DNA of 44,801 bases from Sphingobacteriales bacterium (GTDB lineage: Bacteria > Bacteroidota > Bacteroidia > Chitinophagales > Chitinophagaceae). Within the stretch, counting starts at the first letter, position 1. Each line of letters opens with the position of its first letter. The stretch spans positions 1-44,801 of the forward strand of contig JAHEZE010000012.1 of the NCBI GenBank assembly GCA_023251235.1, given 5' to 3'. The notes beneath the pieces were generated by a model. That model was not told where the DNA came from, did not search any database, and worked only from the letters and a program-made list of their open reading frames with translations. Made by a program: the position numbers and the translations under genes. Below, piece by piece: positions 8,613 through 12,778 of this stretch.

Positions 8613-9722
8613 ATGGCAAAATCTTCAGGAAAACAAAAAACGATCTTAACCGATAAATCATTTGAATTTTTCCGCAACTATATCAATAATGCCTCCCCCG
8701 TAGGTTTCGAAACAAGTGGACAAAAGCTTTGGCTTGAATACTTAAAGCCAAATGTTGAAACTTATTTCACCGATCCCTATGGGTCCGCCGTTGGAGTAAT
8801 CAATCCCAATGAAAAATTTAAAGTAGTCATTGAGGCACATGCCGATGAAATTAGCTGGTTTGTAAATTATATAACTCCTGAAGGAATTCTTTACCTGAAA
8901 AAAAACGGAGGGGTTGATCAACAGGTGGCGCCGGCTCAGCGGGTTTTTATACATGGTAAAAAAGGACCTGTGAAAGCAGTGTTTGGATGGCCTGCAATAC
9001 ATACAAGGCAAAACAATCCTGATCAGAAAGAACCACAGCCGAGAGTGGATAATCTCTTTCTGGATTGCGGAGCAAGAAATAAAAAAGAAGTAGAACAGCT
9101 TGGCGTTCATATCGGAGCTGTTGTTACTTATCAGGATGGATTTGATGAACTGGCCAACGACCATTACGTTGCACGGGCATTTGATAACCGTGTTGGTGGG
9201 TTTATGATTGCCGAGGTAGCAAGATTATTGAAACAAAACAAAAAGAAACTTCCGTTTGGATTATATATTGTTAATGCTGTACAGGAAGAGATTGGATTAC
9301 GGGGCGCTGAAATGATTGCCCGGCGGATAAAACCCAATGTGGCCCTTGTAACGGATGTAACACATGATACCACAACACCTATGATCAGTAAGATGATTGA
9401 AGGTGATATCTCTTGTGGAAAAGGACCTTCACTAGCCTATGCGCCGGCAATTCACAATAAATTACTTGGACTGGTGGAAGAGGTAGCCAAAAAAAAGAAA
9501 ATCCCGGTACAATGGAGGGCACTTAGCCGTTCCACAGGAACAGACACGGATTCCTTTGCTTATTCAAATGATGGATGTCCATCTGTTCTAATATCTATTC
9601 CGTTACGATATATGCATACCACTGTTGAAGTTATTCACCGGGATGATATAGAGAATACGATCAGGCTGATGTATGAAACTTTATTAACACTTACTTCAAA
9701 AACAAACCTCAGTTACCTGTAA
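8613..9722 (+). CDS. M42 family metallopeptidase (glutamyl/deblocking aminopeptidase type)
   Basis: A 369-residue cytoplasmic di-metal aminopeptidase, close to the family's usual 340-370. Ligand and catalytic residues can be read in order: AHADEI (H76), FDNRVGG (bridging Asp), VQEEIGLRGA (general-base Glu and metal Glu), TDVTHD (Asp ligand) and MHTTVEV near the C-terminus (final His). SPVGFE at 28-33 is the typical N-terminal motif. M42 enzymes form large tetrahedral shells that trim short peptides from N-termini. There is no signal peptide. The small YLDPGSGS gene begins immediately after the stop codon, so this gene may head the operon running to 12778. Confidence 0.92.
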   Translation: MAKSSGKQKTILTDKSFEFFRNYINNASPVGFETSGQKLWLEYLKPNVETYFTDPYGSAVGVINPNEKFKVVIEAHADEISWFVNYITPEGILYLKKNGGVDQQVAPAQRVFIHGKKGPVKAVFGWPAIHTRQNNPDQKEPQPRVDNLFLDCGARNKKEVEQLGVHIGAVVTYQDGFDELANDHYVARAFDNRVGGFMIAEVARLLKQNKKKLPFGLYIVNAVQEEIGLRGAEMIARRIKPNVALVTDVTHDTTTPMISKMIEGDISCGKGPSLAYAPAIHNKLLGLVEEVAKKKKIPVQWRALSRSTGTDTDSFAYSNDGCPSVLISIPLRYMHTTVEVIHRDDIENTIRLMYETLLTLTSKTNLSYL

Positions 9723-9723
9723 A

Positions 9724-9891
9724 ATGCATATTACCTTATTATACCTTGACCCGGGAAGCGGCAGTTATCTTGTTCAGGTTATCATTGCAGCTGTATTAGG
9801 GGTTATTTTTTATTTCAAAAATTTCTGGAACAGGATCAAATCATTTTTTTCCCGAGCCAAAAAAAATGAGTCCTCCAAAAACGACCAGTAA
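9724..9891 (+). CDS. Small YLDPGSGS membrane protein (55 aa)
   Basis: A 55-residue protein starting 1 nt after the M42 stop and ending directly before the ATG of the methyltransferase gene (TAA then ATG). It begins MHITLLYLDPGSGSYL, then a single hydrophobic helix (VQVIIAAVLGVIFYF, about 17-31) and a basic, polar tail (RIKSFFSRAKK...). The YLDPGSGS stretch just before a helix is a motif I associate with a widespread class of very small membrane proteins found beside surface-glycan methyltransferase and sulfatase-like genes; that is recollection, not a search. The tight packing between two coding genes argues strongly for translation. It is probably a membrane partner of the next two gene products. 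Confidence 0.82.
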   Translation: MHITLLYLDPGSGSYLVQVIIAAVLGVIFYFKNFWNRIKSFFSRAKKNESSKNDQ

Positions 9892-11265
9892 ATGCCCGGA
9901 TATACACGCTACCCCGCATCTTACAAAGACCCTTCAGGTTTTATATTCCGTGATAATGAAAAAATTTACCGGCAGGTAAATAAACTATATGCTGATCATT
10001 ATAATCTTCTCATTAATTCCGGGCTTTATGATGAATTGACTGGGAAAAAATATTTATTACCCCATACTGAAGTAAAAGAAAATTTATTAAAATCCAATGA
10101 ATGGTATATTACTTTACTACCGGAACAGATTTCCGTTATCAGTTATCCCTATGAGTGGTGTTTTGAGCAATTAAAAGATGCGGCATTGCTTACTCTGAAG
10201 ATTGTAAAAATATCAATAGAAAAAGGGATGATTCTCAAAGATGCTACCCCGTTTAACATAGAATTTTATAAAGGGCGGGCAGTCTTTATTGACACTCTTT
10301 CATTTGAGAAATATGATCATACACAACCATGGGTAGCCTATCGACAATTTTGCGAAACCTTTCTCTTCCCTTTATGGCTGGCTCACTATTACAAAACAAA
10401 TTTTCAGAATATCCTAAGCCTTTATCCAGAAGGAATTTCTGCATTCTTAACCGCTAAACTGCTTCCTCTAAAAAGCAGGCTCAGCTTTAGCGTATGGCTG
10501 CATGTACATCTGCAAAATAAAATAAGTAAAAAGAATACTTCCAAAAAAACGAATAGTAATTTTTCTGAAAATAAATTACTAAACCTGATAACCCATCTTG
10601 AAAATATTATCACCGGCCTTGACAACAGTAAGATTAGTTTATGGAGTAAATATTATGATGATTCCATAATCAGCACGGAATACCTTAGTGAAAAAGAAAA
10701 GATTATCAATAATTTTCTTTCGCAGCTACAGGGCAACAATATACTGGACCTTGGCGCCAATGAGGGATTCTTTTCCTGGCTGGCAGCAAAAAAAGGATTT
10801 AATGTGGTAGCAACAGATAATGACGAACAATGCATCAATAACCTGTATAAAAAAATAAAAAAAGAAAACACCTCTGCCATACTTCCTTTATGTATCGATA
10901 TTACGAATCCCTCCCCTGCACTCGGTTTTGCAAATAAGGAGAGAGCCTCGTGGAATGATCGCATACATGCTGACATTGTCCTTGCATTGGCGTTCATTCA
11001 TCACCTTGTAATTGGAAAAAATATTCCAATCCCCATGCTTGCAGAATATTTATCTCAACTGGCGCCGCAACTGATTATTGAATTTGTGCCGAAGGAAGAT
11101 GTGAAAACTCAACAATTGTTAAAAAATAAAAAAGATATTTACCCGGACTATACAATCATCCAATTTGAAAATATTTTTCAAATCTATTTTAGCATCATAA
11201 AAAAAGAACAAATAAAGGGAACCAACCGTTTTATATATTTTATGAAACGATTGATAAAAGAATAA
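9892..11265 (+). CDS. SAM-dependent methyltransferase with N-terminal kinase-like domain (NoeA-like)
   Basis: A 457-residue two-domain protein. The C-terminal half is a class I methyltransferase: motif I DLGANEGFFS (286-295), acidic strand-2 end ATDNDEQ (307-313), later ADIVLALAFIHHL and QLIIEFVPKED, which fit motifs IV to VI. The N-terminal half contains KDATPFNIEFYKG (116-128) followed by VFIDTLSFE (131-139), spaced like the catalytic loop (D..N) and metal-binding Asp of aminoglycoside-phosphotransferase-like kinases. Proteins of this build are sometimes annotated as nodulation protein NoeA-related methyltransferases. The acceptor is unknown; neighbours point to a surface polymer or lipid-linked substrate. 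The start codon follows the small gene without a gap, and the next gene lies 40 bp downstream. Confidence 0.82.
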   Translation: MPGYTRYPASYKDPSGFIFRDNEKIYRQVNKLYADHYNLLINSGLYDELTGKKYLLPHTEVKENLLKSNEWYITLLPEQISVISYPYEWCFEQLKDAALLTLKIVKISIEKGMILKDATPFNIEFYKGRAVFIDTLSFEKYDHTQPWVAYRQFCETFLFPLWLAHYYKTNFQNILSLYPEGISAFLTAKLLPLKSRLSFSVWLHVHLQNKISKKNTSKKTNSNFSENKLLNLITHLENIITGLDNSKISLWSKYYDDSIISTEYLSEKEKIINNFLSQLQGNNILDLGANEGFFSWLAAKKGFNVVATDNDEQCINNLYKKIKKENTSAILPLCIDITNPSPALGFANKERASWNDRIHADIVLALAFIHHLVIGKNIPIPMLAEYLSQLAPQLIIEFVPKEDVKTQQLLKNKKDIYPDYTIIQFENIFQIYFSIIKKEQIKGTNRFIYFMKRLIKE

Positions 11266-11305
11266 CCGGCAATACAAATTGCAGAAAATTGGCAAGCATA
11301 TTACA

Positions 11306-12778
11306 ATGAAAAATATTTTTACACGATACCCTTTTTTCCTGATGTTATTACCGGCATTTGTAGTAATACATTTTGAAAAAGAATTTCACCTTTTTATCAA
11401 GTATGAATTTATTTATGACCGGATAATAATATTGTTTTCGGTTCCCATATTATCTTTTTTATTTTTCTTTTTCTTTTTCCGGTCTGCGAGAAAATCTTCC
11501 CTGATGACTTTTGGCTTTTTGCTGTTCTTCTATTATACAGGTGATCTTAAAAACTGGTTATCTGCGAAGCTTCCGGACTCAGTATGGCAGAAATATACTT
11601 TTCTTATGTCCGTCTCGTTACTCATTCTGCTGATTTTATTTTTTGCACTAAAAAAAAATAAATCAGTCTTACGAAAGCCTTATTTTTTTATCAATTTAGC
11701 CCTGGTGTTATTTATAGCTGCTGATATAGCCGGGATTATTTTAACCGGCAATAACGGCAAATACAAAATAGTTTCAGAAACAGAAATAAATAACACGGCA
11801 TGTGACACCTGCCTGATGCCCGATATTTATTATATTATTTTTGATGCCTACGCTTCCTCGCAACAACTGCAAAAAGAATTCAGCTATTCAAATACACAGA
11901 TAGAAGATGAATTAAAACACAAAGGATTTCTGATTATTCCGAATTCAAAAAGCAACTATAGCTATACTGATTTTTCAGTGGGAAGTACATTAAACATGAA
12001 TTACATAAATAATGTGGATACTGTTAACATAACAACAGACAGGATGTATATGCAGGCGTTGAGATTAGTATACAAAAATCGTTTTATTCCATTTCTTCAA
12101 AAGGAAAATTACAGCATATTCAATCATTCTCCTTTCGACATTGAGTATTTTTCCACCTCAATAAAGGGCTTTGATTTCTGGAACATCCAGAAGTTATTTG
12201 ATCAATATAACCTCGCATTTAAACTGATTCGGGATATCGGGTATCATTTTTTCAACCCGGTAAAAAATTTCATACATAAAGATGATTTTTATATTAATAG
12301 CCCGGAGAACAAGGTCCGCTTTGACTCCACTGTATACCAGCATCTTTTACAATCCATAAAATTTAAAAGCATACAGCCTAAATTTGTTTATGCCCATTTT
12401 CTAAAAACACATCCACCCTATTTTTTTGATTCACTTGGGCAGGAATTTACGAACCACAACATGACTTACCATGAGAGATATGTACACCAAATCTCCTATG
12501 CAAACAACTTAATAAAAAAAATCACCGACAGTATATTAGTCCATACACAGCGACCATCCATTATTATCATACAGGGAGATCATGGAATTTGCTTTGACGG
12601 GCCGGTAAATCCACAGCATGTTTTTCCAAACTTCAGCGCTATATACTTTTCTAATAAAGATTACAGATTAATCAGCGATTCTACGAGTAATGTAAATACT
12701 TTCCGGATTGTTTTGAACACATTCTTTAAAAAAGACCTTAAGTTATTGCCTTATCAATCTTATTTCTTCTTGAATTAG
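11306..12778 (+). CDS. Membrane-anchored alkaline-phosphatase-superfamily (sulfatase-like) protein
   Basis: A 490-residue protein from ATG 11306; an upstream in-frame TTG at 11279 would add nine polar residues and is less likely. The N-terminal ~150 residues hold about five hydrophobic helices, as in LtaS/EptA-type membrane phospho- and sulfo-transferases. The extracytoplasmic domain begins PDIYYIIFDAYASS, matching the first metal-binding strand, and contains YAHFLKTHPPYFF and IIIQGDHGICFDG, matching the HxPY and DHG metal-ligand regions of the superfamily. Reaction class is likely hydrolysis or transfer of phospho- or sulfo-ester groups on an envelope substrate. It follows the methyltransferase gene in the same direction and is probably the last gene of that operon. 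Confidence 0.85.
   Translation: MKNIFTRYPFFLMLLPAFVVIHFEKEFHLFIKYEFIYDRIIILFSVPILSFLFFFFFFRSARKSSLMTFGFLLFFYYTGDLKNWLSAKLPDSVWQKYTFLMSVSLLILLILFFALKKNKSVLRKPYFFINLALVLFIAADIAGIILTGNNGKYKIVSETEINNTACDTCLMPDIYYIIFDAYASSQQLQKEFSYSNTQIEDELKHKGFLIIPNSKSNYSYTDFSVGSTLNMNYINNVDTVNITTDRMYMQALRLVYKNRFIPFLQKENYSIFNHSPFDIEYFSTSIKGFDFWNIQKLFDQYNLAFKLIRDIGYHFFNPVKNFIHKDDFYINSPENKVRFDSTVYQHLLQSIKFKSIQPKFVYAHFLKTHPPYFFDSLGQEFTNHNMTYHERYVHQISYANNLIKKITDSILVHTQRPSIIIIQGDHGICFDGPVNPQHVFPNFSAIYFSNKDYRLISDSTSNVNTFRIVLNTFFKKDLKLLPYQSYFFLN

Follow-up and report, generated by a model that had tools for sequence, protein, structure and literature searches.

Fusions of a kinase-like domain to a methyltransferase, encoded beside an enzyme of the alkaline phosphatase (AP) superfamily, are a known family with conserved neighbours, exemplified by NoeA and NoeB, which have been hypothesised to modify the Nod factor (PMC9048898). 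The NoeA homologue Lani_1194 has been described as a kinase–methyltransferase in which an arginine replaces the catalytic lysine; both domains are reported to be kept in 94% of its homologues, and homologues of Lani_1193 and Lani_1195 to be present in 65% and 38%, respectively, of 816 neighbourhoods (PMC9758233). In more distant systems, WbdD (PMC3482155) and Klebsiella O7 ORF6 (PMC11231755) phosphorylate and then methylate the end of the O-antigen glycan, and the membrane microprotein DltX carries D-alanine on a tyrosine at the outer face (PMC12148441). Here we describe a locus of the NoeA/NoeB kind in a 44,801-nucleotide stretch of DNA from a Sphingobacteriales bacterium (contig JAHEZE010000012.1, hereafter the window), in which the kinase–methyltransferase gene is directly preceded by a gene for a 55-residue microprotein with the motif YLDPGSGS. 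The microprotein is conserved together with the kinase–methyltransferase across many phyla, including in the nodulation operon itself, and may belong to a cassette for decorating the cell envelope with a phosphorus-containing head group.

The three consecutive genes of the initial annotation are present, all on the + strand, with the coordinates and spacings it gave. The microprotein gene (9724–9891) begins at an ATG 1 nt past the stop codon of an M42 peptidase gene (8613–9722, + strand; Pfam E 1.3e-77). The gene for the 457-residue kinase–methyltransferase (9892–11265), which is of the NoeA/Lani_1194 kind, has its ATG flush with the microprotein stop, and that for the 490-residue membrane AP-superfamily enzyme (11306–12778), which is NoeB/EptA/PbgA-like, has its ATG 40 nt past the kinase–methyltransferase stop; the open reading frame (ORF) listing favours an upstream TTG start at 11279. 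Pfam recognises a TehB-type methyltransferase (3e-05) and Sulfatase PF00884 (2.8e-07) in the latter two proteins, both above cut-off. For the window microprotein, Pfam yields nothing above cut-off and NCBIfam nothing even at E up to 1. Literature searches, beyond whose reach most subscription papers lay, found no published description of it; hits to the motif were papers on unrelated subjects, judged by title, and a phospholipase sequence.

Microprotein genes were collected by a neighbour-blind scan with the back-translated motif and one genome per species, which gave at least 120 stretches (a first 80 and another 40). Leaving out six of the 120 with less than 150 bp downstream, two of which show a kinase–methyltransferase start, 114 loci (L numbers) are usable; the 120 stretches do not amount to 120 species, since L018 and L023 come from one metagenome-assembled genome (MAG) and L016 and L043 are near-identical. 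According to their record titles they represent Bacteroidota, Chloroflexota, Desulfobacteraceae and other deltaproteobacteria, Omnitrophota, Aminicenantes, several Patescibacteria, Krumholzibacteria, Armatimonadota, Calditrichota, WOR-3, Zixibacteria, Riflebacteria, Acidobacteriota, Planctomycetota, Myxococcota, an actinobacterium, a Thermincola, Pelagibacteraceae, a gammaproteobacterium and one archaeal MAG (possible contamination unchecked). A kinase–methyltransferase gene is found in the microprotein cluster at 105 of the 114 loci, at 99 of them directly downstream, on the same strand and within less than 400 bp (66 of 74 in the first part of the scan, 33 of 40 in the second). At the remaining six it is elsewhere in the cluster: behind an intervening AP gene (L016, L043, L036), upstream (L060, L132) or 469 bp away (L118). 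The matches at the 105 loci are strong, the few weak ones being genes cut by the stretch end, and in 45 of 54 measured pairs the kinase–methyltransferase start is placed at −29 to +17 nt relative to the stop codon of the microprotein gene. L036 had seemed to have no kinase–methyltransferase, which was rejected when whole-genome coordinates (genomes G155 and G472, identical in their coordinates, being treated as one) gave the order microprotein–AP–kinase–methyltransferase; the seeming absence at L042, L051, L072, L082 and L090 was an artefact of long antisense ORFs, corrected by six-frame search.

For the reverse test, 696 whole genomes (G numbers) from three phyla were searched with profiles, the threshold for the microprotein being E 0.001 in Bacteroidota and Chloroflexota and 0.01 in Pseudomonadota. 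Among 345 Bacteroidota genomes 11 have the microprotein, 12 the kinase–methyltransferase and 11 both; in the phylum of a Chloroflexota MAG (151 genomes) the counts are 20, 19 and 19, all within about 150 bp, and in the phylum of Pseudomaricurvus (200 genomes) 11, 5 and 5, with an AP gene in between in at least G212 and G264. The microproteins at the Pseudomonadota kinase–methyltransferase loci were missed by the strict motif and found by the profile, and the kinase–methyltransferase of G659 is a fragment with a stop. The microprotein is present in the cluster in 35 of the 36 genomes with a kinase–methyltransferase, G441 being the sole exception; the samples include the centres G000, G148 and G149, chosen for carrying the microprotein, and without G000 and G149 the count is 33 of 34. 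Conversely, seven of the 42 genomes with a microprotein have no kinase–methyltransferase: G148, with phosphonate genes; G280, G275, G243 and G204, with sulfotransferase or arylsulfotransferase neighbours; G591, with a phosphodiesterase; and G260, where the microprotein match is weak and has an internal stop. Of 20 genomes searched individually, 16 have exactly one kinase–methyltransferase copy and four have none. Phages gave no match to the microprotein or the kinase–methyltransferase.

With 105 of 114 scan loci and 35 of 36 genomes, the arrangement is far beyond chance, and since gene orders vary, the co-occurrence reflects more than the inheritance of a single string of genes. The AP gene is less strictly associated: of the 80 stretches that extend 1,900 bp or more downstream, 63 have it, on either strand (42 of 53 and 21 of 27 in the two parts of the scan). 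Among the first 80 scan loci, none of the remaining ORF clusters is seen at more than 12. The initial annotation had regarded the three products as one membrane-linked modification system; that the genes form a conserved unit is strongly supported for the microprotein and the kinase–methyltransferase, which co-occur in diverse phyla rather than mostly apart, and holds more loosely for the AP enzyme.

The same arrangement is present in the nodulation operon. On pSymA of S. meliloti the order is nodL, a 71-codon gene annotated as a ‘hypothetical protein’, noeA and noeB; the 71-residue product reads ...PAHA-YLDPGTGSMLVQ... and is a member of the microprotein family. In strain 1021 its match ends 20 bases ahead of the noeA match (419303 against 419323). 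NoeA-type genes occur in 65 plasmid records (57 Sinorhizobium, 3 Rhizobium, 1 Ensifer and 4 others), and the 71-residue protein matches 61 records with the same genus counts (57, 3 and 1); the four other records have divergent microproteins beside the gene. In one gene order the microprotein follows the kinase–methyltransferase. The passages covered of the literature on nod box n5 mention the small ORF nowhere. The microprotein may also be Lani_1193. The Lani_1194–Lani_1195 pair, like NoeA–NoeB, matches the window in joining a kinase-like and methyltransferase fusion, with arginine for the catalytic lysine, to an AP-fold protein in a conserved neighbourhood, but the text covered of PMC9758233 describes neither a YLDPGSGS family nor a phosphonate replacement.

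Members of this unnamed microprotein family often start with a signal peptide, followed by Y[LI]DPG[ST]GS, one membrane helix and a basic tail. In the window protein (profile match 2.9e-24) the motif occupies residues 7–14 (9742–9765) and is followed by a single hydrophobic helix (9766–9819, approximate boundaries; peak Kyte–Doolittle 19-residue window 2.07) and a basic, aromatic tail (9820–9888). Y7, D9, S14 and Q18 are invariant in all 44 sequences of alignment A3. With start codons chosen by script, 44 of 73 motif-scan members have at least 15 residues ahead of the tyrosine, and 37 of those 44 have alanine at −1, which suggests a signal-peptidase-like site with the tyrosine as +1; the remaining members, the window's included, have a short N-terminus. 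Across the 73 members there is no lysine or arginine between the tyrosine and the helix end, and a mean of 5.5 over the next 20 residues; this positive-inside bias predicts the motif to be outside and the tail on the cytoplasmic side. Positions K/R, W, K and F are conserved in the tail; since the members behind the tail and motif percentages were mostly selected by the motif, the motif percentages are not independent.

Full-length homology of the window kinase–methyltransferase to NoeA (tblastn 29.5% over 99%, E 2e-60 to 3e-60 among the Sinorhizobium matches listed) confirms the earlier comparison with NoeA-like methyltransferases, and its N-terminal kinase-like half (9892–10536, boundary approximate) is that of the published family, from which the kinase assignment is taken (PMC9758233). 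Alignment A1 holds 56 kinase–methyltransferases, the others being 33–56% identical to the window's, and omits cut-off ones, L043, the last 40 loci and the split-frame genes of L026, L073 and L083, which run in two reading frames via mutation or assembly error. R27, D117, N122, D134, G288, N290, H370, H371, E397 and D403 are kept in 56 of 56 sequences. G288 and N290 are part of the S-adenosylmethionine motif; D117, N122 and D134 supply the kinase D, N and D, and R27, probably the published R38, would stand in for the catalytic lysine.

The AlphaFold model of the whole kinase–methyltransferase has a mean predicted local distance difference test (pLDDT) score of 93.4 and places a class I methyltransferase domain at residues 247–457 (10630–11262). 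By sequence profile, all four PDB sequences matched by this domain at E up to 0.01 are WbdD; by structure, VIA-align matches include MePCE (Z 18.4, 191 aligned, 3.2 Å), BCDIN3D (18.1; 186, 2.8 Å) and WbdD (17.3; 186, 3.0 Å). WbdD and Klebsiella O7 ORF6 are likewise bifunctional, but WbdD has its methyltransferase before its kinase and coiled coil, whereas the kinase-like half comes first here, with a microprotein and usually an AP enzyme alongside. A WbdD-type enzyme would also be expected at an ABC (ATP-binding cassette)-transporter O-antigen locus; the window neighbours examined, a UbiA gene and the M42 peptidase gene upstream and two genes beyond the AP gene that we take to be PorQ and Lon, form no such locus. 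The divergent kinase–methyltransferase of G441 (L228:3943–5361), in a genome with no microprotein and with no AP gene in 9 kb, follows an ABC-2 permease and a Wzt_C-domain ATPase and has two GT2 glycosyltransferase genes downstream; this is a WbdD-like, ABC-transporter polysaccharide setting.

The model of the AP enzyme (pLDDT 85.1) has five long N-terminal helices. Its first Foldseek match is full-length EptA (E 1.6e-08, TM-score 0.37), and its top matches in VIA-align are tied, including the YejM periplasmic domain (Z 20.8, 259 aligned, 3.6 Å), EptC and sulfatases. The active-site residues D/E180, T/S221, H364, H369 and D425 are kept in 36 of 36 AP proteins and probably include the metal ligands; the aligned T/S position would, from its spacing, be the nucleophile. 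Formylglycine sulfatases have the cysteine or serine of C/S-x-P-x-R at the nucleophile. The corresponding position in the 36 proteins is threonine in 32, serine in four and cysteine in none, and no C/S-x-P-x-R is present there. The enzyme thus resembles EptA, MCR and PbgA in having N-terminal membrane helices, then an AP-fold domain with threonine or serine at the presumed nucleophile, but its identity to these is only about 8–16% among the matches listed, and the TM-score to full-length EptA is 0.37.

Nine usable scan loci have no kinase–methyltransferase (L068, L088, L091, L122, L100, L108, L102, L119 and L059). Three of them, from three phyla (L068, WOR-3; L088, Pseudomaricurvus; L091, Flavisolibacter), lie in genomes with no kinase–methyltransferase (G157, G148 and G158) and carry a fusion of phosphoenolpyruvate (PEP) mutase to a PF01467 cytidylyltransferase, a phosphonopyruvate decarboxylase, an iron-dependent alcohol dehydrogenase (Fe-ADH) and a CDP-glycerol-phosphotransferase-like gene. 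The three mutases all score above the NCBI cut-off and have EDKxxxxxNS, the three decarboxylases are all above theirs, and the CDP-glycerol-phosphotransferase-like genes, with 34–40% mutual identity, are above the Pfam cut-off in G148 and G157 and below it in G158. L122 shows only the start of the cytidylyltransferase before the contig end, bringing the cytidylyltransferase–PEP mutase gene to four of the nine loci. In L100 and L108 the gene next to the microprotein is 37–40% identical to the Flavisolibacter CDP-glycerol-phosphotransferase-like gene and in the same place; no phosphonate gene itself is seen within the 393 and 649 bp available. PEP mutase–cytidylyltransferase fusions can make CMP-hydroxyethylphosphonate (Fom1), and the same fusion marks the Ppm-PntC phosphonate tailoring clusters, for which the main text of the source mentions no alkaline phosphatase, sulfatase or small protein (PMC6697681).

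The Flavisolibacter locus keeps the order and strand of the window, with a lipoprotein-like gene, UbiA, M42 and the microprotein, and then AP, PorQ and Lon; four phosphonate genes occupy the place of the kinase–methyltransferase, and one extra PIG-L gene follows AP. Its AP protein nests at 100/95 with those of L039 and L026, both kinase–methyltransferase loci, in a tree whose bootstrap is not fully settled and which has long branches elsewhere. From gene order and this tree, the simplest reading is that phosphonate genes replaced the kinase–methyltransferase in the Flavisolibacter lineage.

We propose an envelope-decoration cassette in which a module in the cytoplasm produces a phosphorus head group and the microprotein, usually together with the AP enzyme, helps to add it to the envelope from the outer membrane face, a scheme that we judge about equally likely to be right or wrong. 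We infer its acceptor and chemistry as follows: on the cytoplasmic side, the kinase–methyltransferase would phosphorylate a glycan or lipid linked to the membrane and then methylate that phosphate; the product would reach the outer face; and the microprotein, with its Y-x-D-P-G-S-G-S end exposed, would bind the phosphorus group or pass it to a transferase of the periplasm, as a rule the AP enzyme, much as DltX serves DltB and DltD for D-alanine. In some lineages a CMP-activated phosphonate pathway (hydroxyethylphosphonate being likeliest) would stand in for the kinase–methyltransferase. The precedent of WbdD and ORF6, the setting of G441 and the phosphonate swap point to a small phosphorus head group as the product, and the swap suggests that this head group, not methylation as such, is the conserved theme; the part of the microprotein is less certain.

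Several observations weigh against this scheme. The AP gene was not found at 17 of the 80 long loci (several Anaerolineae, for example), and the 14.5 kb surrounding the phosphonate locus of WOR-3 showed none either, which indicates that AP is not an obligate partner at the locus. Three of the nine loci without a kinase–methyltransferase fit neither pattern in the sequence covered: L102, with an AP-profile match and no kinase–methyltransferase within its 8 kb; L119, with a divergent Sulfatase-family gene and no kinase–methyltransferase in its stretch; and L059, where the microprotein is truncated, a Roc-COR gene lies downstream and the genome has no kinase–methyltransferase. The motif serine is gone in the broader members L165 and L169, and a Novosphingobium microprotein reads YLDAASAS. 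Fe-ADH scores under the NCBI cut-off for its phosphonate family. PF13714 also matches five kinase–methyltransferase genomes (G078, G149, G152, G163 and G165), of which three were inspected; G078 and G165 are without a fused frame, and G152 has, on another contig from its kinase–methyltransferase, a PEP mutase–cytidylyltransferase fusion with no motif microprotein in 8 kb, so that the two modules are not mutually exclusive in one genome. The WbdD profile match is weak (E 0.001), and ChlM (18.3) and NodS (18.1), methyltransferases that act on other substrates, score as high as MePCE, BCDIN3D and WbdD, so the fold comparison singles out no phosphate substrate; the matches listed cover residues 247–456 and are silent on the kinase fold. 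Most of the loci behind profiles A1 and A3 are microprotein-linked, Micromonosporales, described as the most numerous actinobacterial group, are outside the sample, and the commonest kinase–methyltransferase neighbour is reported at 65%, against 97% here (PMC9758233).

The alternative to this scheme that survives best, and which the initial annotation had favoured, is that the microprotein serves simply as a membrane anchor or adaptor bringing the soluble kinase–methyltransferase to the inner membrane face; we consider this doubtful, if still a serious contender. The tight gene pairing, the conserved tail residues and the persistence of the pair without a local AP gene (for example L053, L067 and L076) are all in its favour, but conservation is strictest at the N-terminus predicted to be outside, for which a cytoplasmic anchor has no need, and the microprotein or a relative is also present at phosphonate, sulfotransferase and phosphodiesterase loci without a kinase–methyltransferase. 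As the predicted outer N-terminus is the most conserved part and the kinase–methyltransferase lacks a hydrophobic segment at its N-terminus, the conservation is poorly accounted for by a plain cytoplasmic anchor.

Within the decoration scheme, the microprotein might act as a covalent shuttle, its N-terminal tyrosine or a neighbouring hydroxyl carrying a methyl-phosphoryl or phosphonyl group from a membrane donor to the AP enzyme, as part of a wider Y-x-[DG]-P microprotein set accompanying phosphate-, phosphonate- and sulfate-transferring modules. This form of the scheme, argued by analogy, seems unlikely; any covalent step is less likely than the general scheme, and falls short of an even chance. 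DltX, the nearest working analogue of the microprotein in general, likewise acts in the membrane, in a pathway that modifies the envelope in two steps, and has a conserved tyrosine in an outer-face motif. The partners differ and no homology is claimed: DltX has a C-terminal FXYXXF acyl-shuttle motif, which the window family does not have, its conserved motif being an N-terminal Y-x-D-P-G.

Distinctly unlikely, in our view, is that the microprotein is itself the acceptor, with a phosphorylated or sulfated glycan on its exposed N-terminal tyrosine, serine or threonine, and serves as membrane primer or anchor of a surface polymer. A tyrosine predicted at +1 after signal-peptide cleavage, hydroxy residues beside it and partner families that add charged groups would suit such a role, but serine and threonine are not kept in all members, and, with no cluster beyond kinase–methyltransferase and AP recurring widely among the first 80 loci, no constant polymerase or ligase is seen. 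A specific role of NoeA, NoeB and the microprotein in modifying Nod factors is highly improbable: the genes lie with nodL and such a modification has been hypothesised, but the same cassette is found in Bacteroidota, Chloroflexota, Patescibacteria and other groups that are not known to make Nod factors. Finally, the small ORF usually abuts or overlaps the kinase–methyltransferase start, as a translational leader might, but its protein-level conservation across phyla, its signal-peptidase-like site and its position in other gene orders, with AP in between or with the ORF after the kinase–methyltransferase, mean that it is almost certainly not a leader or a chance frame without protein function.

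The microprotein is thus an overlooked component of a genetically known host-range operon, nodL–noeA–noeB, whose biochemistry is only hypothesised in the literature covered. The occurrence of the cassette in many phyla makes Nod-factor tailoring unlikely as its only function. From the replacement of the kinase–methyltransferase by phosphonate genes at a single locus one can predict which chemical class the product belongs to, so that the question is open to testing. Should the microprotein prove to be a shuttle or an obligate subunit, the cassette would be a small-protein-assisted pathway for phosphorus decoration of bacterial envelopes that has so far gone unrecognised.

Some further loci bear on the range of these families. 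In the Anaerolineae loci L067, L053 and L076, related proteins of 336–372 residues follow the kinase–methyltransferase at the usual place of AP; that of L067 matches no Pfam family at E 0.01. The G152 fusion (L241:2131–3417) has no EDKxxxxxNS string and is followed by small genes. At L119 (Pelagibacteraceae) the microprotein beside the divergent Sulfatase-family gene reads AYFDPGTGSF.., and a fragment resembling a CDP-glycerol-phosphotransferase-like gene lies 6 kb off, at the stretch edge. Related-looking microproteins are found near an arylsulfotransferase gene in L170 and L173 (G275 and G243; AYAYIGPGLG..), with a sulfotransferase-family gene also near that of L170, and near a sulfotransferase-family gene in L172 (G204; AYVGPGAG..); these three may form a branch of the microprotein superfamily that is linked to sulfate. 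At L234 (G280) the microprotein AYIDPNAGS.. lies between sulfotransferase and sulfatase genes, both on the opposite strand. At L225 (G591) and L226 (G627) a microprotein reading MYIDPNTGGILFQ.. stands directly ahead of a gene of about 600 codons, which in L225 encodes a PF01663 phosphodiesterase and is followed by sulfatase and sulfotransferase genes.

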